Part shown: positions 1-12,482 of the stretch, one piece after another | How the letters are laid out: the number at the start of each line of letters is the position of its first letter | Numbering within the stretch: position 1 is the first letter of the stretch | Assembly: GCA_002897695.1 (NCBI GenBank) | Contig: BDTG01000047.1 | Span: 1 to 32,586, forward strand | Length of the DNA: 32,586 bases | Direction of reading: 5' to 3' | DNA from: a bacterium BMS3Abin14 | Lineage (GTDB): Bacteria; BMS3Abin14 | Program-made: the position numbers and the translations under genes | Notes under the pieces: generated by a model | The model's input: the letters and a program-made list of their open reading frames with translations, nothing else | The model's database searches: none | What the model was told of the DNA's origin: nothing

Positions 1-955
1 TGGTGGCGGATCTCCACGCACGAGCCTCAGATAATCCCCGTTTCATCAGGTTACGGGTGCGGGTGAAGGTACGTTTCCACTGTCTCCACAGGATGCACCG
101 GAGTTTGCGGCGTATCCAGCCGTCAAGTTCCTCGAACACACCTTTTACCTCTGCCAACCGGAAATAGTTCAGCCGGCCTCGAATCAACGGCATCAAGTCC
201 TCCTGAATGAACCGGCCAAGGTTGCAGCCTCGACCCTGACGGAATAGTATCCTGAGCTTGGCTTTGAATCGCGCCACACTCTTAGGCGCGACTTTGAGCC
301 GGGGTTGCTTATGATATGTCATGCTGTAACCCAGGAAACTCCTCTTCCAGGAACGGTCCACCGCGCTCTTGTTCCGGTTCACATTGAGCTTGAGACCTCT
401 CTCCAAAAACCGACTGACCGAGGCCAGTACACGCTCGCCGGCACGCTGGGACCGTACATAAATATTACAGTCATCCGCGTATCGACAGAACGCGTGGCCC
501 CGCCTTTCCAGTTCCTTGTCCAGATCATCCAACAGGATGTTGGACAAGAGCGGCGAGAGCGGACCGCCTTGCGGCGTACCTTCAGCGCTCCGGGTAACCA
601 GACCACCATCCATAACTCCCGCCTGAAGGTACCTGCGGACAAGTCCGAGGACCCTCCTGTCTTTGACCCGCCGAGCCACCCGGAACATCAAAATGTCATG
701 GTTCACCCGATCAAAGAACTTCTCCAGATCCATATCAACCACCCAACTACGACCGGAAGCAACATACTCACGGGCATTACGCACCGCATGATGAGCGCTT
801 CGGCCCGGGCGGAATCCATAGCTCGAATCCGAAAAGTATGGATCAAAGACTGGCTGCAAAACCTGATGCAAAGCCTGTTGAATGAGACGATCCAACAGCT
901 CGCCTTTGATGCGCGGCCAGTGCTCGCCTGTGGCTTCCTTCAGATCCCACCTCAC
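1..955 (-). pseudogene. ltrA: Group II intron reverse transcriptase/maturase, N-terminally and internally deleted, partial
   Basis: The frame is open from about 955 (possible GTG) to the window edge. It reads through RT blocks including [50 protein letters not shown] and the catalytic FCRYADD box, then a GIIM maturase region (MPLIRGRLNYFRL, WIRRKLRCILWRQWKR). The N-terminus is abnormal: intron RNA sequence (RWDLKEATG) is fused directly to [10 protein letters not shown], which is fused to DRLIQQAL at about 897-903. The usual block between these, about 28 residues containing the RVEIPKP...LGIPTV strand, is absent. No stop or frameshift is seen in the remainder, so the deletions may be recent. 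With RT-0/RT-1 missing the protein is unlikely to be active. The HNH/C-terminal status is unknown because the gene leaves the window. Confidence 0.8.
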
Positions 956-1046
956 GGTGGGCACCCTTGCCGTCCGGCTAGCAGTTCCCCCTGTCGGGAC
1001 TGCAAAGGACTTACACCTCCAAGTGGGTGCGCCCTGCCGGGCGCAC
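1..1046 (-). mobile_element. Group II intron (probable class C), 5' part, internally deleted, runs off left edge
   Basis: On the minus strand the canonical intron 5' end GTGCGCCCGGCA begins at 1046. It is followed by domain-I-like RNA sequence, including the GGTGGGATCTGAAGGAAGCC stretch (about 933-952) typical of bacterial group II introns. Only about 120 nt separate the 5' end from reverse-transcriptase coding sequence. Intact introns have several hundred nt of domains I-IV there, so a large piece is missing. The 5' junction lies immediately after the T-run of the fdh operon terminator (1048-1077) and in the same orientation, which is the target preference known for class C introns. The 3' end (domains V and VI) is outside the window. 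The class assignment is inferred from the insertion site. Confidence 0.8.
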
Positions 1047-1047
1047 T

Positions 1048-1077
1048 AAAAAAAGGGGCCCCGTTTCGGAGCCCCTT
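1048..1077 (-). terminator. Rho-independent terminator of the fdhA-fdhB-fdhI operon
   Basis: On the minus strand AGGGGCTCCG, loop AAA, CGGGGCCCCT forms a 10-bp stem (one G-U pair) followed by seven T residues. It begins about 30 nt after the stop of the cytochrome b subunit. The group II intron 5' end starts one base (A) after the T-run. Confidence 0.92.
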
Positions 1078-1107
1078 GCATCCTTTCAAGAATGACGTTT
1101 TACACCA

Positions 1108-1710
1108 CTACACTTCATCCCCTTCCCAGGCGCCGTGGTTCTTCCTGGCCCAGGCCTTTGTAACGGTACCCTTGGTCATAGCACGCCACGTTCCGGGCAT
1201 GCCGACAGTTCCCAGGTACACATGACCCACCATGGCCAGCATGAAGATGATGAATCCAAGGTTGTGGAGGAAGTACATCCACTGTTGAAGCCCTCGGCCC
1301 AAGGTAAAGGGAAACCACATGAACAGCCCCGTAACCCCCATGAACAGGCCAAGAAGGAAAACCGCCCAACCGAGCATCTTCTGACCGGCATTGAGTTTGC
1401 CGGCGGCAGGTCCATGGAAAGACGGATCCATAAATTCCTTGGCGACGGTTCCCAGAGAATCCTGGCCCGGTGCGGTGTAGTCCTTCATCCACTGGGAGAA
1501 GATGATGAAGGTCGTCAGGATGAACACAATCCCGGTGTAATGATGGATACCCCTGGATGTGCCCACCCCGCCGAAAATGCCCGTCAGCCAGAAGAATTTT
1601 TGGCTGTAAAGCCCAAGGCCGGTCAGGGCCAACGTGATAAAGGCCAGCATGTTGACCCAGTGGAAGAACCTCTCACCGGAGGTATAGCGCTTGATAAGAT
1701 GATTAGACAT
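1108..1710 (-). CDS. fdhI: Formate dehydrogenase cytochrome b subunit (gamma)
   Basis: This is the membrane anchor that takes electrons from the FdhB iron-sulfur chain to the quinone pool through two b haems. The 200-residue protein has about four hydrophobic helices (roughly residues 18-37, 58-78, 110-131, 143-167). Histidines near helix ends (H17 in [10 protein letters not shown]56/H57 in [22 protein letters not shown]) fit haem b ligation in the FdnI/FdoI family. The start at [11 protein letters not shown] was chosen because GGAGGT lies 7 nt upstream; the longer reading frame to 1806 lies inside fdhB. The ATG overlaps the end of fdhB (ATGTCTAA), which indicates translational coupling. Last gene before the terminator. 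Confidence 0.93.
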
Positions 1711-2488
1711 CGCTGTCACCTCCTTCCTCATCGGTTTCCCCGGGCCCAATGGCCACAAAATGGGCAATGGCAGCGAATACTCCCGCCAGGAAGAGTACGA
1801 CACCAAGAGGCTTCAGAACCGACCGCAGATACGTCGCGGCGGGTAGAGCCGGTTTATCGGGGAGCCCGTAAACCGAAGGTTTATCCTCCAGGAGGAAAAC
1901 TACGTGGGTGTTCAGAGCCCCGCCGTCGTACACCGAAAGCCCCTTTTGCCTGGCCATGGCTTTAACGGCCGGAAGTCCGGAACTGCGGGTAAAGGAAAGA
2001 GCGCCTGTTGGACATGTTTTGGTGCATGCCGGTTCCATTCCCATGGACTGGCGATCGAAGCACATGGTGCACTTGAACGCCTTGTCCACGCCGGCGCCCT
2101 CTGCGTTACCTCTATCGAAACGCGGGATATCGAACGGGCAGCCGAAGACACAGTACTTACAGCCGGTGCAAACGTCCTGATTGATGACGACAGCCCCATT
2201 GCTGTCCCGTGTAATGGCGCCGGGAACCGGACAGGCCTTCATGCACCCGGCATCCGAGCAATGCATGCACCGGTCCTGGCCGAAGAACCAGCTCAGGCCT
2301 CCGTCCTTCTCCACCTCGTTGAAAAGTATCCTGGTGTAGGTGCTGTAGGAGAGGTCCGGGGGGTTCTCGTAGCTGCCGTGATTCTCCGTTACCACCGCCG
2401 AAAGGTTATTCCACTGCTTACAGGCTGTCTGGCAGCCGCGGCAGGCAGTACATTTGGATGTATCGATTACTATCATTTTCTCAGCCAC
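1703..2488 (-). CDS. fdhB: Formate dehydrogenase iron-sulfur subunit (beta)
   Basis: Electron-transfer subunit between the catalytic FdhA and the cytochrome b anchor. Four cysteine groups are visible: CTACRGCQTAC, CMHCSDAGCMKAC, CTGCKYCVFGC and CTMC...CTKTC. That is sixteen cysteines for four 4Fe-4S clusters, as in FdnH. A single C-terminal hydrophobic helix (LKPLGVVLFLAGVFAAIAHF) would anchor it on the periplasmic side. The likely start is GTG at 2488, with a very strong Shine-Dalgarno (GGGGGTGAT) at suitable spacing; an ATG four codons later is the alternative. The gap to fdhA is 16 nt and the end overlaps fdhI by 8 nt. Length 261 is slightly shorter than E. coli FdnH (about 294). Confidence 0.95.
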   Translation of the reverse strand: MAEKMIVIDTSKCTACRGCQTACKQWNNLSAVVTENHGSYENPPDLSYSTYTRILFNEVEKDGGLSWFFGQDRCMHCSDAGCMKACPVPGAITRDSNGAVVINQDVCTGCKYCVFGCPFDIPRFDRGNAEGAGVDKAFKCTMCFDRQSMGMEPACTKTCPTGALSFTRSSGLPAVKAMARQKGLSVYDGGALNTHVVFLLEDKPSVYGLPDKPALPAATYLRSVLKPLGVVLFLAGVFAAIAHFVAIGPGETDEEGGDSDV

Positions 2489-2504
2489 TCAAATCACCCC
2501 CTTC

Positions 2505-5500
2505 CTATGCCTTCTTGACGTTGACCATAAAGGCCTTCGTCTCAGGAATCATTGTGTTGGCATCCCCAACGGATGGCGTCAACAGGTTTGAAGAATCGCC
2601 GAAGGTGTGGTTGCTGTACTCTTTGCCATTGGCCATGACGTCGTTTTCCTTTGTGGTGGCCCATCCGAAGCACCAGGGCAGGCCCACCTGGTGAACGGTA
2701 GTACCCGCCACCTTGAACGGCTGGAAGCGCTTCGTCACAATGGCAACCGCGTCCACGCTTGAACGGACGGAGGAGACAACGACCTTGTCCCCGTTTCCGA
2801 TACCCTTTTCCCTGGCGAGTTCCACGCTTATCTCCAGGAAGTTGGCAGGCTGCATCTCGACCTGCCATGGCAGCCAGCGGGAAAGCACACCCGTCTGCCA
2901 GTGTTCCGTTACCCGGTAGGTTGTGGCGACGATGGGATAGCGATCGTCGCTGTTAGCGAACTGATCAAGTTTCCCCGAGAAAATCTTGATCACCGGGTTG
3001 ATCCTCTGGGGGCTCATGAGGTTTTTCTCAAGGGGGGATTCCAGAGGCTCGTAGTGCTCAGGGAACGGTCCCTCCGCACGGCCCGGGCCAAAGAGCCTTC
3101 CAACGCCTGCGGGTTTCATGATGTAGGCCAGTTTGGTCTTCTCGTTCCACGTTCCATCCGGCTTCCGCAGGGGCGGCCAACCGCCGTCTGGAACGTCGCC
3201 GATCCATTTCGCGCCGTTCCAGTAGATGACCGGCTTTTGGGGGGCCCAGGGCTTGCCGTACTCGTCGACACTGGCGCGGTTATAGATGATCCGCCGGTTG
3301 ACGGGCCAGCACCAGGACCAGCCATTATAAAGGCCGATGCCCGTGGGATCGGACTTGCCCCGGCGGGCCATGTTATTCCCGCCGGCGTTGTAGGACTGGC
3401 TGTAAAGCCAGTTTCCTGATGAAGTGGACCCGTCGGCCTGCAGGAAAGCGAAGGACGGCACGAGGTCGCCGGGTTTATAGGTCTTGCCCTTGATGGTCCT
3501 CTCCTCGAGGAAATACCCGTTGATCTCCTTTGCGATGAGGTGGGTATTCATGCGGCGCACCTTGCCGTCCGGTCCCTTGGGGCCGTAGTCCCAGGTCATA
3601 TTCAGGATGGGGTCGGGGTAGACGCCGCCCTGTTCCTGGTACAGTTTTTTGACCCTGAACTGAAGCTCGTTGAGAATCTCCGAATCGGGGGGAGCAGGAG
3701 GCGCCACCGCGGCGTATCGCCACTGGCCCCAGCGACCGCTGTTGGTGATGCTGCCCTCCTTCTCGAAGGACATTGCGCAGGGCAGGAGGAAGACCTCCGT
3801 CTTTATCTGGGATGGGTCCATGCCGGGGGCCCGCCAGAAGGAGCCGGTCTCGTTGTCGAACAGGTTTACGTTGACCATCCAGTCCAGCTTTGTCAGTGCC
3901 TGGCGGGTCTTGGCGGAGTTGGCGCCGGAGCATGCAGGGTTCTGTCCCCACGCGAAGAACCCGGTGAATTTGCCCTTGTACATCTCATCGAAGAGCATCA
4001 GCCAGGAGGCGTTCTGTCCATCGTCAAGCTTCGGCAGCCACTGGTACTGGGTCTCCAGTGAGGCGCTCTTCCCGAAATGAGCACGGAGAAGGCTTGCACT
4101 GTATTTCGGGTAATTGGCCCACCAGTTGGCCGAATAGGGCTCACTGGTCTTCGGGGTATAGGCGCTGTTGTACCTGGCGAAAGAGGAGTCCTTGGCCCTC
4201 GGGGTTTTCAGATAGCCGGGGAGGATGTGAAACAACAGGCAGTGGTCCGTGGAACCCTGAACGTTGGACTCACCCCTCAGTGCATTAACACCTCCGCCCG
4301 ACATCCCTATGTTGCCCAGCAGGAGCTGGATTATGGCCATGGTCCGAATGTTCTGGGTGCCCACCGTATGCTGGGTCCATCCCATGGCGTACATGATGGT
4401 GCCCGTCCGGGCGGGTGTTCCCGTGGAGGTGTAGGTCTTGTAGACCTCCAACAGATCCCTCTTGGGCGTCCCGCAGATCGCCGACACCTTATCCAGGGTA
4501 TAGCGTGAGAATTGTTTTTTAAGAAGCTGGAGAACGCACATTGGATCCTTCATGCCGGGATCCTTCTTGATTACGCCCTTCCCGTCTTTCACGAATGCCC
4601 ACGACTTCTTGTCGTACTTTCTCTTTTTGGGATCGTAGCCGGAGAATACACCGTCCAGATCGCCCGGCATTTTGAAGCCTGTGTTAACGATGAACGGCCC
4701 GTTGGTGTACATCCGGACGTAGTCCCTGTGAAAAAGCTCGTTGTCCATGATATACTTGATCATCCCGCCAAGGAAGGCAATGTCCGTTCCCGACCTCATG
4801 GGAGCGTAGATATCAGCCTTCGAAGAGGTCCGGGTAAACCTCGGGTCAACACTGATCAGCTTTGCACCGTTCTCCCGTGCCTTGTCGACCCACTTGAACG
4901 ATATTGGATGGTTCTCAGCAGCATTGGAACCATCTATCAGGATAACATCCGAATTGCGGATGTCGATCCAGTGGTTTGTCATTGCACCGCGCCCAAACGA
5001 CTCTGCCAGAGCCGCTACAGTGGCGCTGTGTCATATCCTTGCCTGGTGTTCGATATACACCAGGCCCAGAGCGCGAAGCCATTTCTGGAGGATGTAGCAC
5101 TCCTCGTTATCCAGGGCCGCGGAACCCACCGAAGCAACCCCATCATTTCGATTCACTACCTGTCCGCCGGCATTGACCTTTGTAAAACCTGCGTCGCGGC
5201 TCTTCTTTACCCTGCGGGCAATCTGGCTGTAGGCCCAGTCCCAGCTGACCTCTTTCCATTCCCCGCTCTTCGGGGCCCGGTACAGAGGCTTGGTGATACG
5301 CCACGGGTTTTCGGAAACCTGACGCAAAGCCTGAGCCTTGGAGCAAAGGGTCCCCTCGTTGATCGGATGGTCAGGATCGCCGTCCATGTAAACGACCTTG
5401 CCGTCATGGGCCTGGACAATAAGGCCGCATCCGACTGCACAGTACGGGCAGATGGAGATCGACTCCCTGGAATACTTGATGGCCGTATTGCCGCCTCTGG

Positions 5501-5600
5501 CGCCGGCCATTGATATACCGCGAAGGCCGAGCCCTCCCAACGCCGCACCGGACACGCCGGCGCCGGAGATCTTTAAAAAATCTCTTCTCGTAACATTCAT
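2505..5600 (-). CDS. fdhA: Formate dehydrogenase alpha subunit, selenocysteine-containing, Tat-exported
   Basis: Catalytic molybdopterin (bis-MGD) subunit oxidising formate to CO2 in the periplasm. Start ATG 5600 gives the Tat signal TRRDFLKISGAG; ATG 5609 is an alternative but lies only 2 nt from GGAAGG. The N-terminal 4Fe-4S motif is C51, C54, C58 and C86. At 5031-5033 an in-frame TGA sits in the context HQARI-U-HSATVAALAESFGRG, the FdnG-type active site (Sec190 followed by the catalytic His). It must be read as selenocysteine; conventional ORF calling splits the gene into 5702-5031 and 4982-2505. The C-terminal MGD-binding domain includes VTEHWQTGVLSRW and HQVGLPWCFGW. The full product is 1031 residues, close to FdnG (1015). 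It has its own promoter and long leader. Confidence 0.96.
4997..5033 (-). promoter_or_regulatory. SECIS element for UGA recoding in fdhA
   Basis: After the TGA (5033-5031) there are 15 nt, then GCGGCTCT, loop GGC, AGAGTCGT: an 8-bp stem with two G-U pairs and a loop starting with G, 24 nt after the UGA. This geometry fits bacterial SECIS hairpins bound by SelB (apical loop with an early G, about 16-37 nt downstream). Pairing was read by eye, not folded. Confidence 0.75.
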
Positions 5601-5740
5601 CCTTGCCATCACCTTCCTTTCTCTTACGGTTAAAGATTCGGGAATAAGCTTTTTTCGGAACCAAACTAACTCTTTAACACCTGCCTTGCCTTCGGAACTC
5701 ACCCCCCTCCCCCTGTTTTTTTGTCCCGAAAAAGTCCCTC

Positions 5741-5781
5741 AAAAAACAAAAGGAAACCATGAGTTTATCACGGCTTCCTTT
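5741..5781 (-). terminator. Leader terminator / attenuator upstream of fdhA
   Basis: On the minus strand AAAGGAAGCCGTGA, loop TAAAC, TCATGGTTTCCTTT forms a 14-bp stem with two G-U pairs and no mismatch, followed by TTTTGTTTTTT. It lies between the fdhA promoter (5909-5937) and the fdhA start (5600), about 120 nt after the predicted transcription start, so it would stop fdhA transcription unless overridden. The other strand has no T-run after the hairpin, so it works only in the fdhA direction. Confidence 0.8.
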
Positions 5782-5902
5782 GCAAAATAGGCAGGCACGG
5801 CGATTACTCCCCGCACCCTATCGTCCTGCCCATCCCGGTGGGACGCAACAGGATCGGAAGTCTTTGTCCGGTATTTTACCCGGCACCCAGCGATTTTATA
5901 TA
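5782..5902 (-). ncRNA. Structured 5' leader of fdhA, possible cis-regulatory RNA
   Basis: About 120 nt of leader precede the attenuator. It contains at least one clear hairpin (CCGGGTA-AAA-TACCGG near the 5' end) and complementary GC-rich tracts such as GGGCAGG and CCTGCC. Position before a strong terminator is typical of riboswitches or protein-controlled attenuators. I could not match it to the molybdenum-cofactor, cyclic-di-GMP or cobalamin aptamers from memory, so no class is assigned. Confidence 0.4.
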
Positions 5903-5908
5903 GCAGGA

Positions 5909-5937
5909 ATTTTACCCCATCGAACCGTCAATTTCAA
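5909..5937 (-). promoter_or_regulatory. Sigma-70-type promoter of fdhA-fdhB-fdhI
   Basis: On the minus strand TTGAAA (5937-5932), a 17-nt spacer and TAAAAT (5914-5909) give a good sigma-70 match. Transcription would start near 5902, leaving a leader of about 300 nt before fdhA. Confidence 0.65.
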
Positions 5938-5941
5938 CCAT

Positions 5942-5956
5942 TAAAACCATGTTTTA
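5942..5956. promoter_or_regulatory. Perfect palindrome upstream of the fdhA -35, possible activator/repressor site
   Basis: TAAAACCATGTTTTA is a perfect 6+3+6 inverted repeat centred about 47 bp upstream of the predicted fdhA transcription start and 4 bp from the -35 box, the position of a class II-like activator site. The binding protein is unknown; the sequence does not match the TTGTATACAA boxes near the GntR genes. Confidence 0.4.
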
Positions 5957-6036
5957 GCAAAAACAGCGGCGCGGACGACACAACACTCTGCATAGAATGT
6001 CCGTAGAATTACAATGGCCGTGGAACACGCACCGGA

Positions 6037-6960
6037 TCAGGCGGGGGCATCCTCGGGCCCGTCCCCGTCATCCACATCAAAGCCGACCCAGACACCGAAA
6101 ATATTGGGGGCGCTCCTCCGGTACCCTTCCCCTTCCGCGGCCAGATCGTAGCCGGGGGTCTTGAGATCCTCCACCTCCGGATTGGGATTATCATCCCCCC
6201 CGGAATCCCACGTTTTTATGTATCCCTTGCAGCTGTTGCAAAAATCCACCCTCAGATTGCTGTCCCCGCCTTCCAGGGTGAAGAACCCCAATTTTTCGTA
6301 GTCGCTGTTCCCGCAGAAGGGGCACATGATCCTTCGAAAGCGCCATGTGGTCTCACACCTGTGGCAGATCAGGTATCGTTTCCCACCCTCACCCTTCAGT
6401 ACTGCAACGGCGGGGCCGCCCCCGCAGACAGGACAGAATCCATGCTCCCAACCCGAGGTGTCAATTTTTCCGAGGGCATGGGATATATCCCTGAATGTTC
6501 CCTTAAGGACGTTGAAGACGGTGAAGAGGGCGATCTCCGGATTGAGAGGTGGGGGGATCACCCCGGCATCCCTGAATCTCTCCTCGCCGTCAACAAGGTA
6601 ATTTTCCACCATTTTTCGAAACAGCCCTTTTTCATCCAGAAGGCCTGATGCCCTGCTGTTTCCATCCGCATGGTCAGAATGGACCCTCAACACATCCAGT
6701 ATCTCTGCGGCCCTGTTAACCATGGCCCGCTCCGATGGCATGATCTCGATGGGTTGAAGGAGTGTAAACCCTTCCTTGAGCCTCATCTCGGCCTCGTCCC
6801 CGCCTGGTGCATGAAACCTTTTACCGGGTTTCAGCGCCTTCGCATTGAGGGCGGAAAGGGTCCTGTAGAGTTTAAGAACCTCCTCCATCTCCTCCATGTC
6901 CATTTTTCCCTTAAAGAGGGCCTGGATAGCATTTGAACCGGTTTTGTCCGAGCTTGCCAT
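6037..6960 (-). CDS. fdhE: Formate dehydrogenase accessory protein FdhE
   Basis: FdhE is a cytoplasmic rubredoxin-like protein needed for active respiratory formate dehydrogenases; it binds the catalytic subunit before Tat export. The 307-residue product carries the four CxxC pairs of the family in the C-terminal half: CPVCGGGP, CHRCETTW, CPFCGN and CNSCKGY. The N-terminal half is helical and divergent, as usual. Start at ATG 6960 is supported by AGGAGG at 5-nt spacing. It lies 61 nt after the serine-type FdhA paralogue and 436 nt before fdhA, same strand. The acidic tail DVDDGDGPEDAPA is a local feature. Whether it serves the Sec enzyme, the paralogue, or both cannot be read from sequence. 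Confidence 0.92.
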   Translation of the reverse strand: MASSDKTGSNAIQALFKGKMDMEEMEEVLKLYRTLSALNAKALKPGKRFHAPGGDEAEMRLKEGFTLLQPIEIMPSERAMVNRAAEILDVLRVHSDHADGNSRASGLLDEKGLFRKMVENYLVDGEERFRDAGVIPPPLNPEIALFTVFNVLKGTFRDISHALGKIDTSGWEHGFCPVCGGGPAVAVLKGEGGKRYLICHRCETTWRFRRIMCPFCGNSDYEKLGFFTLEGGDSNLRVDFCNSCKGYIKTWDSGGDDNPNPEVEDLKTPGYDLAAEGEGYRRSAPNIFGVWVGFDVDDGDGPEDAPA

Positions 6961-7021
6961 TGAGTCCTCCTGTTACCAAGAAATAATCGGCGCCCAAAGG
7001 AATGAATCCTGCGGGCCGGGG

Positions 7022-9817
7022 CTATCCTTTCTCAACTTTCACCATGAATGCTTTCAACTGCATGCCTCCATCCTTACCGTTGAAGACGGGGGAAAAGAGT
7101 TCGTTGGTCCCAGGTCGTTCAGGCCTGTAACCGGTAACGGAAGTGACATGGTAATGTTTTCCATTATACTCGAAATCCCCCAAACGGAAAGTGACAAGCG
7201 CCAGCGCACGGACAGGTTCTTTTACAAACGGTGTTTTGATATTGACCCTGTCACCACTGACCACATCCAGTTCGGCCGCCAGGGCTGGCCCCATCTCCAA
7301 CATCCGGCCGGTTCCCAACTCCGTAAGCCACCCCACCCGTCCCAGGATACCTCCGCTTCCCATTGTATTGCCTGTCCGGTGGGCCGTCATGATCACCGGG
7401 AATTTAGCCAGCACGTCCTCCGGCCTTCTGGAGAGGTAGTCCCATGGGCCGGAGCTTTCGTCCATTTTCTCGATGGACGGGTCGGACCTTCCTCCTGTCA
7501 GGTAATCGGGGAGAGGGCTGTGGAACGGTTCGTAGTGCTCCGGGAAGGGTGTCCCCGTGGCGGTTGTTCGCCAGAACCGCACTGATAGACCAGGCGCAAC
7601 CGGCGGAGAGCCTGACCAGCGAAGCAGTATGGACCTGTCCTTTTCATGACCAAAAACCCAGGAAAACGGATCGGGCATTCCCCATGGCCAGAACCAGCCC
7701 CATCGTTCAAATAGCCCGCGGCCATAGGGGTCCGATGAGTCCCTTCTCCCGGCCAGCCACGTCTCACCGGCCATCTGGCCACGGTAGAAACGGTTACCGC
7801 AGGAGGCCCCACGGGGCCAGTCCCGCCCGGGTGTGAGGGGTACCGTTTTCTCGGCATCATCGTTCACCACCCCGTTAATCTCCCTGGCGACGGCCTCCGT
7901 ATCTGCCCAAATAGGCCATCTCAGGGATTTCACCGGTGAAAGGCCCGGTCCCCCTTCGCTGTGGGCCATTTTTTTCACAATAACACCGAGCCTGGTTATG
8001 GTGTGGAGGAGAGGATGGGCCGTTTCCGGAAGAGCATGGGCTGGGCAAAGGCGGCGAACCCTTCTTCCGGCATCCGTCATGCTCCCGGAACGAAGGGCCG
8101 GGGGCTCTATGGGGATAAAGATAACCTCCGTCTTCAGGGCAAAGGCCCCGCCGGCGGCTTCCTTCCAGAAACGGCTTGTCTCGTTGGGCACGGTATCGAT
8201 AACTACCAGGAGGTCAAGTTTCTCCAGCGTTTCACGGACTGTTTTTCCACCTGGAAAACTGTTGACCAGGTCCGAACCGACAACTATCAACACCTTTATT
8301 TTTTCACTGGCCACGTCACGGAGGATGGTGCTGATTGAAATCCCCTCGTCCTTTTTCACGACAGGTAGAAAACCGACGGCCTCGGAAGGTTTTTTTGTGT
8401 CAAACCAGGCCCTGGCCAGTGCCTCAAGGGCGCCTGGGTCCTCCCTCTCAAATTCGGTATTTCCGGATTTGGCTCCCTCCAACGGCAGCGGAAGGTAGCC
8501 GGGAAGATATGGCGCCAGCAGGCCCATGTCGCAGACACCCTGAGCGTTTCCCGACCCGGATGGGACGATAATCCCGCCGCCCCGCTTTTTCAGGTTTCCC
8601 AGCAGGGTCTGGATTATCGCGGCCATCCGGACGGTATCTGATCCCGATGGACGGCACAAAACGCCTGCCCCAAGGACAAAGGAGGCGGAAAACTCCTGGC
8701 GCCCCGTTCTTGCCAGTTCTTTGCAGACCCGTCGAAAAAGGTCCAGGTCCACCCCTGAGATCCCGGCGATTTTTCGCAGATCGTATCGGCTGTAGTGTTT
8801 TATTAATCGCTGATAGATGGTGTAGGGTTCGGAAAGCCCCGGATCCATCTTTAGCTTGCCCCTGGACTTCCCGCGTGTATACCGCTGGTACTGTCCCATG
8901 ATTTCAGTCAGGGTCGAGAAGGAGGCATCCGTATGCTTGAGCAGTTCTTCGGTCCTGCGTTCTCCATGTTCGAGTATCCAGGAGATGAATCCGCCGAAGA
9001 CGGCAGCATCGCATCCAGGTCGGGTCTGGAGCCAGATATCTCCGGGTTTGATGGATTCCGTCCATCTGGGGTCAATAAACACCACCGTTCCGCTCCTCCG
9101 CCTTACCTCGTCTAAAAATCGGGAGAGTACAGGAGCAGTCTGTCCGGGGTTGCACCCGGCAACTATGACCAGGTCGCTCTCGGCCACCTGTGTCGGTGGG
9201 TGGGTCGGAGCAGGGAGTCCAAGGACACCGGACAGGCCCTGAACGGCCATCCCGTAACTGACCCGGACAGTGGTGTCCATTTTGACCATTCCCATGGATC
9301 GGAAGAGTTTGGAGAGAAGATATGCCTCCTCGTTAGTCAGGCTCCCTCCGCATATCATCCCCATGTTATCCAGGCGGTTTGAGGACATCCCTGCAGTGGT
9401 GCGTCCGCTCATTTCGTGGTCCCGGGCATCCTTGATCCGCCGCCCGACCGCATAGACGGCATCCTCCCAGGAGACTTCCCGCCAACTGGATTCGCCTGGA
9501 TATCGGTGCAATGAGCCAACCGATTTCACGGAATCGGTGACGGCGGTCAGGGATATCCCACGGGCGCACAGGGATCCCATGGCCACCGGACAGTCGGGGT
9601 CTCCTTCCACTTTCCATCGCCCATCGCTGTCCCTGAAATAAATAACACCGCAGCCCATGGAACAGAGGGGGCACCGGCTGGGCGTTTCGCCGCCATAGAT
9701 CACGGACCGATTTTTTGCCCCCCGGAAGGCCCCTGCCTCGCCGGAAGACAGGGTGGTCAGAAGGAGGCCTCCCCCGATTTTCAGGAAGCTTCTCCTGCTT
9801 ATGCCCTTATTTTTCAA
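7022..9817 (-). CDS. FdhA-like molybdopterin oxidoreductase with Ser at the Sec/Cys position, Tat-exported
   Basis: Paralogue of the Sec FdhA over its full length (931 residues). A Tat signal (ISRRSFLKIGGG) and the N-terminal 4Fe-4S motif (C49, C52, C56, C84) are intact, and a C-terminal MGD-binding domain is recognisable (TAHRTGNTMGSGG). At the active site HQARI-U-HSATV of FdhA reads TTVRV-S-YGMAV: the metal ligand is Ser187 (AGT, 9257-9259) and the catalytic His is Tyr. GWTQHTVG is GVLCRPSG here. Formate chemistry by the known mechanism is therefore unlikely. Serine ligands occur in DMSO/TMAO reductases, but the framework is FDH-like. Start: TTG 9817 has AGGAG at 6-nt spacing; the ATG at 9823 touches that site with no spacing. 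It could be an enzyme with another substrate, or a non-catalytic partner for Mo-cofactor loading or assembly. Confidence 0.85.
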   Translation of the reverse strand: MKNKGISRRSFLKIGGGLLLTTLSSGEAGAFRGAKNRSVIYGGETPSRCPLCSMGCGVIYFRDSDGRWKVEGDPDCPVAMGSLCARGISLTAVTDSVKSVGSLHRYPGESSWREVSWEDAVYAVGRRIKDARDHEMSGRTTAGMSSNRLDNMGMICGGSLTNEEAYLLSKLFRSMGMVKMDTTVRVSYGMAVQGLSGVLGLPAPTHPPTQVAESDLVIVAGCNPGQTAPVLSRFLDEVRRRSGTVVFIDPRWTESIKPGDIWLQTRPGCDAAVFGGFISWILEHGERRTEELLKHTDASFSTLTEIMGQYQRYTRGKSRGKLKMDPGLSEPYTIYQRLIKHYSRYDLRKIAGISGVDLDLFRRVCKELARTGRQEFSASFVLGAGVLCRPSGSDTVRMAAIIQTLLGNLKKRGGGIIVPSGSGNAQGVCDMGLLAPYLPGYLPLPLEGAKSGNTEFEREDPGALEALARAWFDTKKPSEAVGFLPVVKKDEGISISTILRDVASEKIKVLIVVGSDLVNSFPGGKTVRETLEKLDLLVVIDTVPNETSRFWKEAAGGAFALKTEVIFIPIEPPALRSGSMTDAGRRVRRLCPAHALPETAHPLLHTITRLGVIVKKMAHSEGGPGLSPVKSLRWPIWADTEAVAREINGVVNDDAEKTVPLTPGRDWPRGASCGNRFYRGQMAGETWLAGRRDSSDPYGRGLFERWGWFWPWGMPDPFSWVFGHEKDRSILLRWSGSPPVAPGLSVRFWRTTATGTPFPEHYEPFHSPLPDYLTGGRSDPSIEKMDESSGPWDYLSRRPEDVLAKFPVIMTAHRTGNTMGSGGILGRVGWLTELGTGRMLEMGPALAAELDVVSGDRVNIKTPFVKEPVRALALVTFRLGDFEYNGKHYHVTSVTGYRPERPGTNELFSPVFNGKDGGMQLKAFMVKVEKG

Positions 9818-9898
9818 ACACATCTCCTGTCGATTTTTACCGCGAGGCCGTGGCCGGCGCCGGAAAAAATACCGGATGCTGAAATCCGCTAATGTCGG

Positions 9899-10585
9899 TC
9901 ATTCTGGATCAACGGGCTCTTTTCCGGAGAGATGTCTAACGAGAACAACGCCGCCGGTGATAACGTTTTCCCTCACCTTGGCCTCAATGCTTTTTTCATC
10001 ACGGTTGCGGAAGGCCTCAATAATCTCCCTGTGCTGTCTGGCCACTTCAGCAAATTGTCCGGGAAAAGTCAGAGAGACGGCGCCAAAACGTTTAAAATGG
10101 TCGTTCAGGTTGGAGATCATCTGGATGAGGCGGCTGTTCCCGCTGAGTTTCACGAAGACCTCATGAAACCTGCAGTGTGTCCTGTAATATCCATCAATGT
10201 CATCCTCCGCCTGAAAATTTTCAAGCTCGACGCTGATCTTCTCCAGCTTTTCGATGTCCTTCCCTGCCATATGGGGAGTTGCCAGACGTGCGGCAAGACC
10301 TTCGAGAGTGCTTTTTATCTCGTAAAGCTGGAAGGCTTCATCGGAGTTGATCCCGGTAACAACGGCCCCTTTCCGTGGGATTATCTCTATGAATCCCTCA
10401 TTTTCCAGCTTTCGGAACGCTTCCCGAAGGGGGGTTCGGCTGATTCCCATGGAATCGGCCAGCTCACCCTCGGAGATCTTCTCACCAGGCCGGAACTTTC
10501 CCTTGATAATGGCTGTCCTTATAGAATCGGCGATGTCCTCCGACAGAAGCTTTGGTTCCTGGATCCTGATCTTGAAGTCTTTCAA
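9899..10585 (-). CDS. GntR family transcriptional regulator, FadR/FCD subfamily (second of tandem pair)
   Basis: DNA-binding regulator of 228 residues. The N-terminal winged helix (about residues 12-75) contains the GntR signature ELADSMGISRTPLREAFRKLENEG; the C-terminal all-helical FCD ligand domain spans about 80-215. FCD domains often use an Asp and three His to hold a metal; here FHEVF and RQHREII are present but the expected last His is Asn (VRENV), so metal binding may be altered. The start is TTG 10585, overlapping the stop of the upstream regulator (TTGA), so the two are translationally coupled. It ends 81 nt before the Ser-type FdhA paralogue, same strand, so a role in controlling the formate dehydrogenase genes is a reasonable inference. 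Confidence 0.88.
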   Translation of the reverse strand: MKDFKIRIQEPKLLSEDIADSIRTAIIKGKFRPGEKISEGELADSMGISRTPLREAFRKLENEGFIEIIPRKGAVVTGINSDEAFQLYEIKSTLEGLAARLATPHMAGKDIEKLEKISVELENFQAEDDIDGYYRTHCRFHEVFVKLSGNSRLIQMISNLNDHFKRFGAVSLTFPGQFAEVARQHREIIEAFRNRDEKSIEAKVRENVITGGVVLVRHLSGKEPVDPE

Positions 10586-11253
10586 TGGATTCCGGATTCC
10601 TCCATCCTTTTGATCATCTGGACCAACTCCTCGCCGGCGAGGAGAACATGTTCAACCACGACTGCTTCGGCCAGGCGACCGTCCTTTTTTTCAAATGCCT
10701 TGATGATAGACTTGTGCTGGTTTACAGACTCCATAAGCCGACCAGGCAAGGACAGCGTGGCCATGCGAAAGCCCTTGAATCTTTGGACCATGCTGTCCCG
10801 AATTTCGAGAAGTTTTTCATTTTCGCAAAGTTTGATAAAACAGTTATGAAAGTCGTTATTCCTGGCGAAAAATGCCTCGAGCTGACTCTTTTCCGCCAGT
10901 TCGGCCAGTTGTCCGTTTATTTTTTTAAGCTTTTCGATATCGCCGTTAGATATTTTCTCGGCGGCAACCCGGGCAGCGTATCCCTCGAGAAGACTCTTGA
11001 TCTCATAAAAATCCTCCACCTGCTTCGCGGTGATAGTGGATACTACCGCCCCCCTGCGTGGGATAACCGCCAGGAATCCCTCACTCTCAAGCTGACGGAA
11101 TGCCTCCCTTATGGGCGTACGGCTGATCCCCAACTTGGCTGCAAGTTCCGGCTCAGTAAGTTTCTGCCCGGGAGCAAGTTCCCTTCGAATAATGGACTCC
11201 CGAAGTGAAGTGGCAATCTGCTCCCTCAATGTTTTGTGCTTTTTAAGTTTCAT
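10582..11253 (-). CDS. GntR family transcriptional regulator, FadR/FCD subfamily (first of tandem pair)
   Basis: Regulator of about 223 residues, paralogous to the next gene. Winged helix with ELAAKLGISRTPIREAFRQLESEG (about residues 35-60), followed by an FCD domain with NDFHNCF, NQHKSII and VEHVLL, so the three FCD histidines are present. The start was set at MKLKKHKTLREQ (ATG 11253, AGGA just upstream); the frame continues to 11331 but without ribosome-site support. The stop overlaps the TTG start of the second regulator. A pair of TTGTATACAA-like boxes 120-140 nt upstream is a candidate autoregulatory site. The FCD effector is probably an organic acid, but the ligand cannot be read from sequence. 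Confidence 0.88.
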   Translation of the reverse strand: MKLKKHKTLREQIATSLRESIIRRELAPGQKLTEPELAAKLGISRTPIREAFRQLESEGFLAVIPRRGAVVSTITAKQVEDFYEIKSLLEGYAARVAAEKISNGDIEKLKKINGQLAELAEKSQLEAFFARNNDFHNCFIKLCENEKLLEIRDSMVQRFKGFRMATLSLPGRLMESVNQHKSIIKAFEKKDGRLAEAVVVEHVLLAGEELVQMIKRMEESGIH

Positions 11254-11371
11254 TTTCCTGATATAATCCAAGTCAATAGGAAGCAATCCAGCCGGACGAC
11301 CCAACAACCGATTACTCCACAAATACTCCACAAAAAATCATCGGTGGTTTTTACTGGGATCCTGTCAATAA

Positions 11372-11395
11372 TTGTATACAATGTACACTATACAA
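11372..11395. promoter_or_regulatory. Paired GntR/FCD-type operator boxes
   Basis: TTGTATACAA (11372-11381, perfect 10-bp palindrome) is followed by CACTATACAA (11386-11395, imperfect copy), centres 14 bp apart. TNGTATACNA palindromes are typical FadR-subfamily operators. They lie between the GntR pair (minus strand) and the DciA-like gene (plus strand), so they could control either or both. Confidence 0.6.
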
Positions 11396-11496
11396 CAATC
11401 AAAGTCATGGCAATATTCCATGGATTTTCCAGAACTCCCGAGTCTGCCGATGATTGGCTTTTCATGAAATCATTTTGGATGAAAAGGCGAAGATCC

Positions 11497-11811
11497 ATGA
11501 GGGAAAGGACAAATAAACAGCGCCCTGTGCCGGTTGGGGAAATCATCTCGAGAATTATGGAAAATCTGGATATTCCGCCGGAGACCATTCAGAGGGGAAA
11601 CGCCCTGAATGCGTGGAAGACGGTCGCCGACAAGGCCGCGCCGCACTCGGAGGCCATCCATTTTCAGGGAAAAACCATCGTCGTGGCAGTCAGCGGACCC
11701 GGATGGATGACCGAGCTGTCCATGCGCAAGGTCGAACTGCTGCTTCGTCTCGAAAGGGAGGTCGGCAAAGGCATAGTAACCGACATACGGTTCCAGATGG
11801 ACAGGAGGTAG
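11497..11811 (+). CDS. DUF721/DciA family protein
   Basis: Small basic protein of 104 residues. The segment NAWKTVADKAAPHSEAIHF...GKTIVVAVSGPGWMTELSMR...LLLRLE...VTDIRFQM matches the DUF721 (DciA) fold: a conserved Trp, a central beta-sheet with the 'W..EL' helix start, and the terminal IRF strand. DciA is the ancestral loader of the DnaB replicative helicase in bacteria lacking DnaC. The start MRERTNKQRP (ATG 11497) is my choice, with AAGG upstream; in-frame ATGs at 11479 and 11464 are alternatives. It is a single plus-strand gene between minus-strand blocks; the promoter may share the operator region at 11372-11395. Confidence 0.78.
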   Translation: MRERTNKQRPVPVGEIISRIMENLDIPPETIQRGNALNAWKTVADKAAPHSEAIHFQGKTIVVAVSGPGWMTELSMRKVELLLRLEREVGKGIVTDIRFQMDRR

Positions 11812-11860
11812 GTGACTGGCCCGTATCAGAGAGAACCGGCTTTTGGCGAGGTAGTCACCT
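11810..11860. repeat. Inverted repeat between convergent genes
   Basis: AGGTGACT (11810-11817) and AGTCACCT (11853-11860) form a perfect 8-bp stem around a 35-nt loop. It overlaps the stop codon of the DciA-like gene and lies just outside the end of the convergent outer-membrane protein gene (11868). There is no T-run, so it is not a classical terminator, but it may stabilise or end both transcripts. Confidence 0.4.
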
Positions 11861-11867
11861 GAAGCTG

Positions 11868-12482
11868 TTATAAATAGATACGCACACCTACTGAGAAGTT
11901 ATGCGCCCTTAAAAAACTGCTGTACTTGTGGACCCCGGTCTTCAATTCCGCCTCCGTCGTATAGAAAAAACGGTACTGGAAGTCCAGGGCTATGGACCGT
12001 GTGACATGCACCGCGACCCCTGCTGTGACCTGGTAGGCCAGAACATCATCGACCGCCTTGACTCCTGCATCATCCAGGGTGATGTGGGCTCCGCCTATGC
12101 CTGCGCCGATAAACGGGGTGTAGAACGATTCCCTTTCCAGATCGTAATAGCCGTTGAACATAAGGCTCCGGACGACATAATTGATGCCGTCGACAGCTGT
12201 AGTCCCCACAGAATCAACATCGTTGAGACGGTATCCTGCCTCCATCTCCAGCCTGCCGTTGGGAAAGGAATATCCGAGAACGACGAACCTGTTGGAACCG
12301 GAGGCGAACAGGACGTCGCTCTTCCCGAGGTCCGGTTCATCCGTCAGATCATCGAAGGTGCCGTCGCCAAGCTTCACGGTCCCTGTCTGTGCCGACACGT
12401 ACATGCGCTCCAGTGCCTGAGCGGAAGAACAGAAAATAACGACAATAATTAAACTCAGGGGTAGAACAAGTATCCTTTTCAT
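11868..12482 (-). CDS. Outer-membrane beta-barrel protein
   Basis: A 204-residue exported protein: signal peptide about residues 1-25 (MKRILVLPLSLIIVVIF...SSAQA), then alternating amphipathic beta-strands such as NRFVVLGYSF, GRLEMEAGYRLN, FTPF-type GAGIGGAHITL and AYQVTAGVAVHV. The final strand, AHNFSVGVRIYL, ends in Leu rather than the usual Phe/Tyr of BamA-recognised barrels. The pattern is that of small eight-stranded barrels (OmpW/opacity-like 'outer membrane beta-barrel' families). The start at ATG 12482 has GGAG 8 nt upstream; GTG 12488 is the alternative. Function unknown; it ends the housekeeping run. Confidence 0.8.
   Translation of the reverse strand: MKRILVLPLSLIIVVIFCSSAQALERMYVSAQTGTVKLGDGTFDDLTDEPDLGKSDVLFASGSNRFVVLGYSFPNGRLEMEAGYRLNDVDSVGTTAVDGINYVVRSLMFNGYYDLERESFYTPFIGAGIGGAHITLDDAGVKAVDDVLAYQVTAGVAVHVTRSIALDFQYRFFYTTEAELKTGVHKYSSFLRAHNFSVGVRIYL

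Follow-up and report, generated by a model that had tools for sequence, protein, structure and literature searches.

Moco RNAs (Rfam RF01055; Regulski et al. 2008) and their group lacking the P3 stem (Tuco/Wco) are already known. According to the text of PMC2408646 available to us, the sole member tested, the E. coli moaA RNA, turns expression off at the level of translation, and the evidence for ligand binding is indirect throughout; transcription termination was reported for the same RNA in the accessible part of PMC12121620. The available text of PMC2408646 also mentions terminators for Moco RNAs, makes no mention of an ON switch, assigns 58 of 176 RNAs to the P3-lacking group and notes a GCAA loop without receptor for four RNAs. 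The absence of P3 was correlated there with tungsten cofactor use, as a correlation only, and when P3 was removed from the E. coli RNA, regulation was lost with no change in specificity. A Moco RNA has been placed before a hydrogenase/formate dehydrogenase-related cluster in Eubacterium limosum, with no mechanism given in the portion at hand (PMC5651825), and the part of PMC10845959 that we could consult proposes an activating bis-MGD riboswitch before torC, which is unrelated. Our literature search found no account of an ON-type Moco riboswitch like the one described below, a weak indication, as most subscription papers and supplements lay outside its scope. Adenine riboswitches of the pbuE type are transcriptional ON switches in which a P1 strand is shared with the terminator and the ligand prevents termination.

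We analyzed a stretch of 32,586 nucleotides of bacterial DNA (the window). On its minus strand, an FdhE-like gene ending at 6037 is followed by a promoter-like site, a leader, a terminator, a spacer of about 140 to 150 nt, and fdhA (Table 1). An earlier note on this DNA had described a promoter, a structured leader and a 14-bp terminator with a T-run, and this layout was confirmed by scanning, shuffling and folding. The promoter-like site ranked best in a scan of window positions 1 to 12000. The number of terminator-like sites in that scan showed no significant excess (17 versus 13.3 ± 4.0 in shuffled sequence); a 14-pair stem with a T-run, in contrast, did not arise in any of 500 dinucleotide-shuffled versions of the 427 nt from 6036 to 5610 (maximum, 13 pairs). 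The leader (5902-5741) had a folding energy of -66.1 kcal/mol, versus -47.8 ± 3.8 for shuffled sequences (z = -4.9). Nothing essential was lost by the boundaries of 5741 and 5902 chosen earlier, and the aptamer (5871-5759) overlaps the terminator.

Table 1. Features of the fdhA locus in the window
Feature	Position	Strand	Basis
fdhA, formate dehydrogenase-N type catalytic subunit, Tat signal	2505..5609 (start 5609 or 5600)	-	TIGR01553
Iron-sulfur (beta) subunit	1703..2488	- (fdhA direction)	TIGR01582, below its cut-off
Cytochrome b (gamma) subunit	1108..1806	-	TIGR01583, above cut-off
Sigma-70-type promoter-like site TTGAAA-17-TAAAAT	5909..5937	-	Consensus match alone, 10/12 positions
Moco RNA (Mo/W-cofactor riboswitch) aptamer	5759..5871	-	Rfam RF01055
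Short-type aptamer core (P1, P2, P4 with GUAA loop, P5)	5773..5861	-	Model R1, 93.9 bits
P1 5' strand CTTCC	5856..5860	-	RF01055 alignment and folding
P1 3' strand GGAAG, common to terminator 5' arm	5774..5778	-	Folding
Intrinsic terminator hairpin AAAGGAAGCCGTGA-TAAAC-TCATGGTTTCCTTT	5749..5781	-	-18.3 kcal/mol; 14 pairs including G-U, 5-nt loop
Terminator tail TGTTTTTTGA (T-run)	5739..5748	-	Terminator scan

The product of fdhA scored 1385 bits against TIGR01553 (formate dehydrogenase-N alpha; cut-off, 814). The gene has a single in-frame TGA (Sec) at codon 193 (window 5033-5031), kept in all 14 fdhA genes compared, the window's own included, and its earlier designation as a Sec-type formate dehydrogenase gene was borne out. 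A strong intrinsic terminator (1077-1053, minus strand; 11 pairs and a T-run) directly follows the gamma subunit gene and fits an operon end. A second formate dehydrogenase-like protein is encoded at 7022-9823 (minus strand); it scored 393 bits with TIGR01553, below the cut-off, and apparently carries Ser at the Sec position (RVSYGMAV versus RIUHSATV, by eye). Two adjoining GntR/FCD regulators, possibly a duplicated local pair, lie upstream of that second gene (9899-11331, minus strand).

The earlier note had found no riboswitch consensus in the leader. This was wrong: when Rfam models were run against its minus strand, RF01055 matched at 39.9 bits, above the gathering score of 36, over the full model (positions 1 to 135). 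The only other Rfam match above cut-off in the window was a short one to group-II-D1D4-3 after the fdh operon (895-961, minus strand; 35.3 bits, cut-off 32; 67 nt of a 170-position model), which is probably spurious, and a match to the long non-coding RNA WT1-AS_5 (14.2 bits, cut-off 80) was discarded as chance. Among the signals proposed previously (molybdate/tungstate, Moco, selenium or formate), the Mo/W cofactor gained support from RF01055, and we rejected a selenium or formate sensor, for which there was no support.

The leader has the P1, P2, P4 and P5 junction and the core in common with Moco RNAs and, like them, lies upstream of a Mo/W enzyme gene, here that of a formate dehydrogenase alpha subunit. 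The P3 columns are deleted in the RF01055 alignment, so that the P3 stem is absent, as in the Tuco/Wco group. Unlike the canonical form, in which a GAAA tetraloop closes P4 and P2 holds the receptor, the leader has a GUAA loop, no 11-nt tetraloop receptor and a shortened P2. Its low RF01055 score is due to this subtype: it reached 93.9 bits with R1, a model built from 25 short-type RNAs that include the window's own.

In P1, CTTCC pairs with GGAAG, and GGAAG sits in the 5' arm of the terminator, AAAGGAAGCCGTGA. P1 and the terminator are therefore mutually exclusive, and the overlap of a terminator arm with the 3' strand of P1 is what is expected of a transcriptional ON riboswitch. In folds of the full leader, the terminator form reached -66.1 kcal/mol, versus -54.8 kcal/mol with P1 enforced. 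In simulated elongation, the pair probability of P1 was 0.55 to 0.58 when the transcript ended at P1 and 0.00 once the terminator was complete. Both energies and elongation point to termination as the default state, so that any ligand holding the aptamer in place would have to act as an activator. We conclude that the fdhA leader is very probably a P3-lacking riboswitch of the Moco family (short P2, GUAA loop on P4, no receptor) that turns transcription on. The family match, the covarying secondary structure, the P1/terminator overlap, the order of energies and the conservation in relatives were all computed.

The mechanism that follows goes beyond these computations by inference: it presumes which ligand binds, that binding stabilizes P1 and, from the structure, in which direction fdhA is controlled in vivo. 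Transcription would start near 5902, and the nascent RNA would fold into the P1-P2-P4-P5 aptamer. Binding of a pterin metal cofactor, its tungsten form being likelier than its molybdenum form, would hold the CTTCC/GGAAG helix; the AAAGGAAG strand would then not be free, the terminator would be blocked, and transcription would read through into fdhA and the following fdh subunit genes. When the cofactor is missing, the terminator, predicted to be far more stable than P1, would take GGAAG from P1, and transcription would stop with fdhA off. We propose that, through this cofactor-dependent read-through, the enzyme would be made only when its cofactor is present. The E. coli moaA RNA turns expression off via the ribosome binding site, whereas P1 of the fdhA leader doubles as a terminator arm and is predicted to turn expression on. 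The sharing of P1 with the terminator is like that of pbuE-type adenine riboswitches, but the aptamer and the ligand are unrelated.

In formate dehydrogenases of the fdhA type, the metal bound with bis-MGD is either Mo or W. The window's genome encodes a TupA-like tungstate-binding protein (52% identity to the query, which we take to be TupA) and four AOR-family (AFOR_N) genes. Together with the lack of P3, these genes favor a tungsten form of the cofactor as the probable ligand and speak against a reading with the same RNA and the same ON logic in which the ligand is the molybdenum form, the bis-MGD form or a precursor. That reading is a serious if somewhat unlikely one: the genome has a second copy of the RNA before an AOR gene, and the two copies could respond to one shared pool; moreover, the exact ligand of the family is described as not settled in the part of PMC10845959 available to us.

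We next compared Moco RNAs across genomes. RF01055 searches of 61, 39, 297 and 54 genomes (six of the 39 repeat genomes of the 61) contributed, respectively, 30 of 31 rows (G051:C41 left out), 19 of 29 rows (10 were the same family genomes again), 115 rows (five repeated G074 rows and three below cut-off left out) and 49 rows (one duplicate and two partial matches left out). The resulting 213 RNAs with distinct sequences comprised 25 short and 188 long ones, short meaning at most 87 nt from P1 to P1; 28 were short by length, and three from G170 (L265, L281 and L300), long-type RNAs wrongly measured, were removed by hand. The short RNAs came from the family of the window, the phylum that includes G024, Desulfobacterota and a single other MAG (G083), the family orthologues not being independent. 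A terminator was considered overlapping when its 5' arm started no later than the third base on the 3' side of P1. This was the case for 22 of the 25 short RNAs (all but L136, L209 and L210) versus 3 of the 188 long ones, and shuffling the sequence 3' of P1 gave chance overlap in a mean of 0.9 of the 25 short RNAs (maximum, 3; 40 rounds). The P4 loop, read by eye from the alignment, was GYAA in 23 short RNAs and GAAA in two, and receptor-like strings were found by a crude string test in 0 of 25 short versus 34 of 188 long RNAs.

All 25 short RNAs precede genes of cofactor-using enzymes, fdhA in 14 cases and AOR (aldehyde ferredoxin oxidoreductase) in 11. Long RNAs mostly stood before genes read as moaA, tupA, moeA, modA or porin, and also before fdhA (6), AOR (8) and AOR-ferredoxin (7). 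Gene names in this survey (MoaA, TupA, MoeA, ModA, XDH and others) were mostly assigned from the sequence of one cluster member and not by family search; AOR was checked on L001 and L017 (the latter below the family cut-off), and FdhA was checked with the window protein and in a tblastn search. Within the window's family, long copies lie before moaA with a terminator after P1 in eight genomes by scan, that of L008 being doubtful because its stem lies inside the coding region. The long copy in the window's own genome precedes the AOR gene and has no terminator. Taken together, a testable rule emerges: in one genome, the same cofactor would shut down the pathway that makes it (moaA, with the terminator after P1) and turn on the enzymes needing it (fdhA/AOR, with the terminator inside P1). 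Xanthine-dehydrogenase-like genes, whose products use the cofactor, are an exception to this rule, as they mostly follow long RNAs with downstream terminators.

The survey also bears on the opposite logic for the fdhA leader, an OFF switch in which the bound cofactor would favor termination, the logic of feedback on biosynthesis genes. In its favor are the OFF control by the E. coli moaA RNA, the single member tested (PMC2408646, in the text available), and the position of the terminator after P1 in most long-type RNAs (113 of 188; in between in 2, none in 70). The terminator of the window uses the P1 strand itself, however, and cannot coexist with the aptamer, as is likewise the case in 22 of the 25 short RNAs; no antiterminator was noticed in the leader, which was looked over for one only in passing. 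We therefore consider an OFF switch quite improbable here.

The predicted ON switch is conserved among relatives. Of the 12 genomes in the window's family, 11 carry the same RNA about 120 to 330 nt upstream of the fdhA orthologue, and in the twelfth (G006) the R1 match is cut by the contig end. Both terminator arms and the aptamer core are nearly invariant across the family. The P1 strands show no variation within it, and P1 covariation therefore comes from other lineages alone. When 80 fdhA neighbors were searched with R1, a short-type RNA was found in 8 and a long-type RNA in 5; the remaining 67 gave no RNA with this model, some of them because the contig ends at the gene.

In the alignment of the 25 short RNAs, standard pairs filled 95.1% of the paired cells, versus 77.0% after shuffling. 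Both sides changed in 19 of the 28 aptamer pairs, a count that 0 of 500 shuffles equaled, and the covariation score was 0.568 versus 0.219 ± 0.014 for shuffled sequences and was lost on sliding the partners. Covariation thus backs the P1/P2/P4/P5 architecture, both P5 pairs being invariant within the short set. In 41 RNAs with overlapping terminators, P1 positions 3 to 6 were paired in 131 of 164 cases (shuffled mean, 111; maximum, 125). The shared strand covaries with both partners, a change from G-C to C-G at the fifth position, for instance, being seen in P1 and in the terminator; pairing on the terminator side was complete (162 of 162), a figure biased by the terminator search method, which partly guarantees it. 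Covariation and a terminator, whose absence from related leaders the earlier note would have counted against control, were thus both present.

A vestigial riboswitch or plain constitutive terminator, with fdhA expression depending on incomplete termination or on a promoter located 3' of 5741, would suit the roughly 140 nt ahead of fdhA and a score barely exceeding the Rfam cut-off, but it is the least likely reading of all, since the aptamer core covaries across lineages and is kept before fdhA in the family, and the low score reflects the subtype.

Using R1, we found 22 additional RNAs, 21 of them in Desulfobacterota and unlisted by the RF01055 search, and one (L056) before an fdhA. An overlapping terminator, here beginning no later than the fourth base on the 3' side of P1, was present in 19 by scan, and two more had one whose hairpin exceeded the length limit of the scan. 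The Rfam cut-off was passed by only three of the 22; the Rfam model thus misses most of the short subtype, and cofactor control of tungsten enzymes is therefore under-annotated. Nine of these RNAs (L320 and L361 to L367, e.g., L363:301-509, with one tandem pair) represent a minimal Moco-like form of 68 to 84 nt, in which P2 and P4 are plain hairpins and 6 of 16 predicted pairs covary. All nine have a P1-overlapping terminator and fall below the Rfam cut-off, and a ferredoxin-type (AOR-ferredoxin) or AOR gene lies downstream wherever an ORF is in reach. At L308:1501-1790, a tandem pair of short-type RNAs, each with its own overlapping terminator, precedes an AOR gene.

We would call the combination of a short P2, a GYAA loop, a P1-sharing terminator and a downstream cofactor-using enzyme a new, little-recognized variant, predicted to be of the ON type. 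The part of the Tuco/Wco description available to us does not report the consistent occurrence, ahead of fdhA/AOR, of a short P2 carrying a CCC/GGG hairpin together with a terminator that overlaps P1. More tentatively, and at slightly less than an even chance, the window RNA may belong to a distinct, largely unlisted subfamily of ON-type Mo/W-cofactor riboswitches for cofactor-using enzymes (fdhA, AOR), spread over several phyla and including the minimal form; members of this subfamily might bind a form of the cofactor (e.g., a tungsten bis-pterin dinucleotide) that differs from the one recognized by OFF-type RNAs in their genomes. The small P3-less RNAs, especially the minimal ones, are good objects for asking what Moco-type RNAs bind.

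Finally, the phylum of G047 has two short RNAs before AOR that are without a terminator (L379 and L380). In these, ATCACCCTC, which lies just 5' of P1 and includes the first P1 bases, can form a 9-bp helix with GAGGGTGAT, located at the ribosome binding site (by eye). Through this pairing the 5' flank might keep ribosomes from binding, which would make the two RNAs possible translational ON switches.
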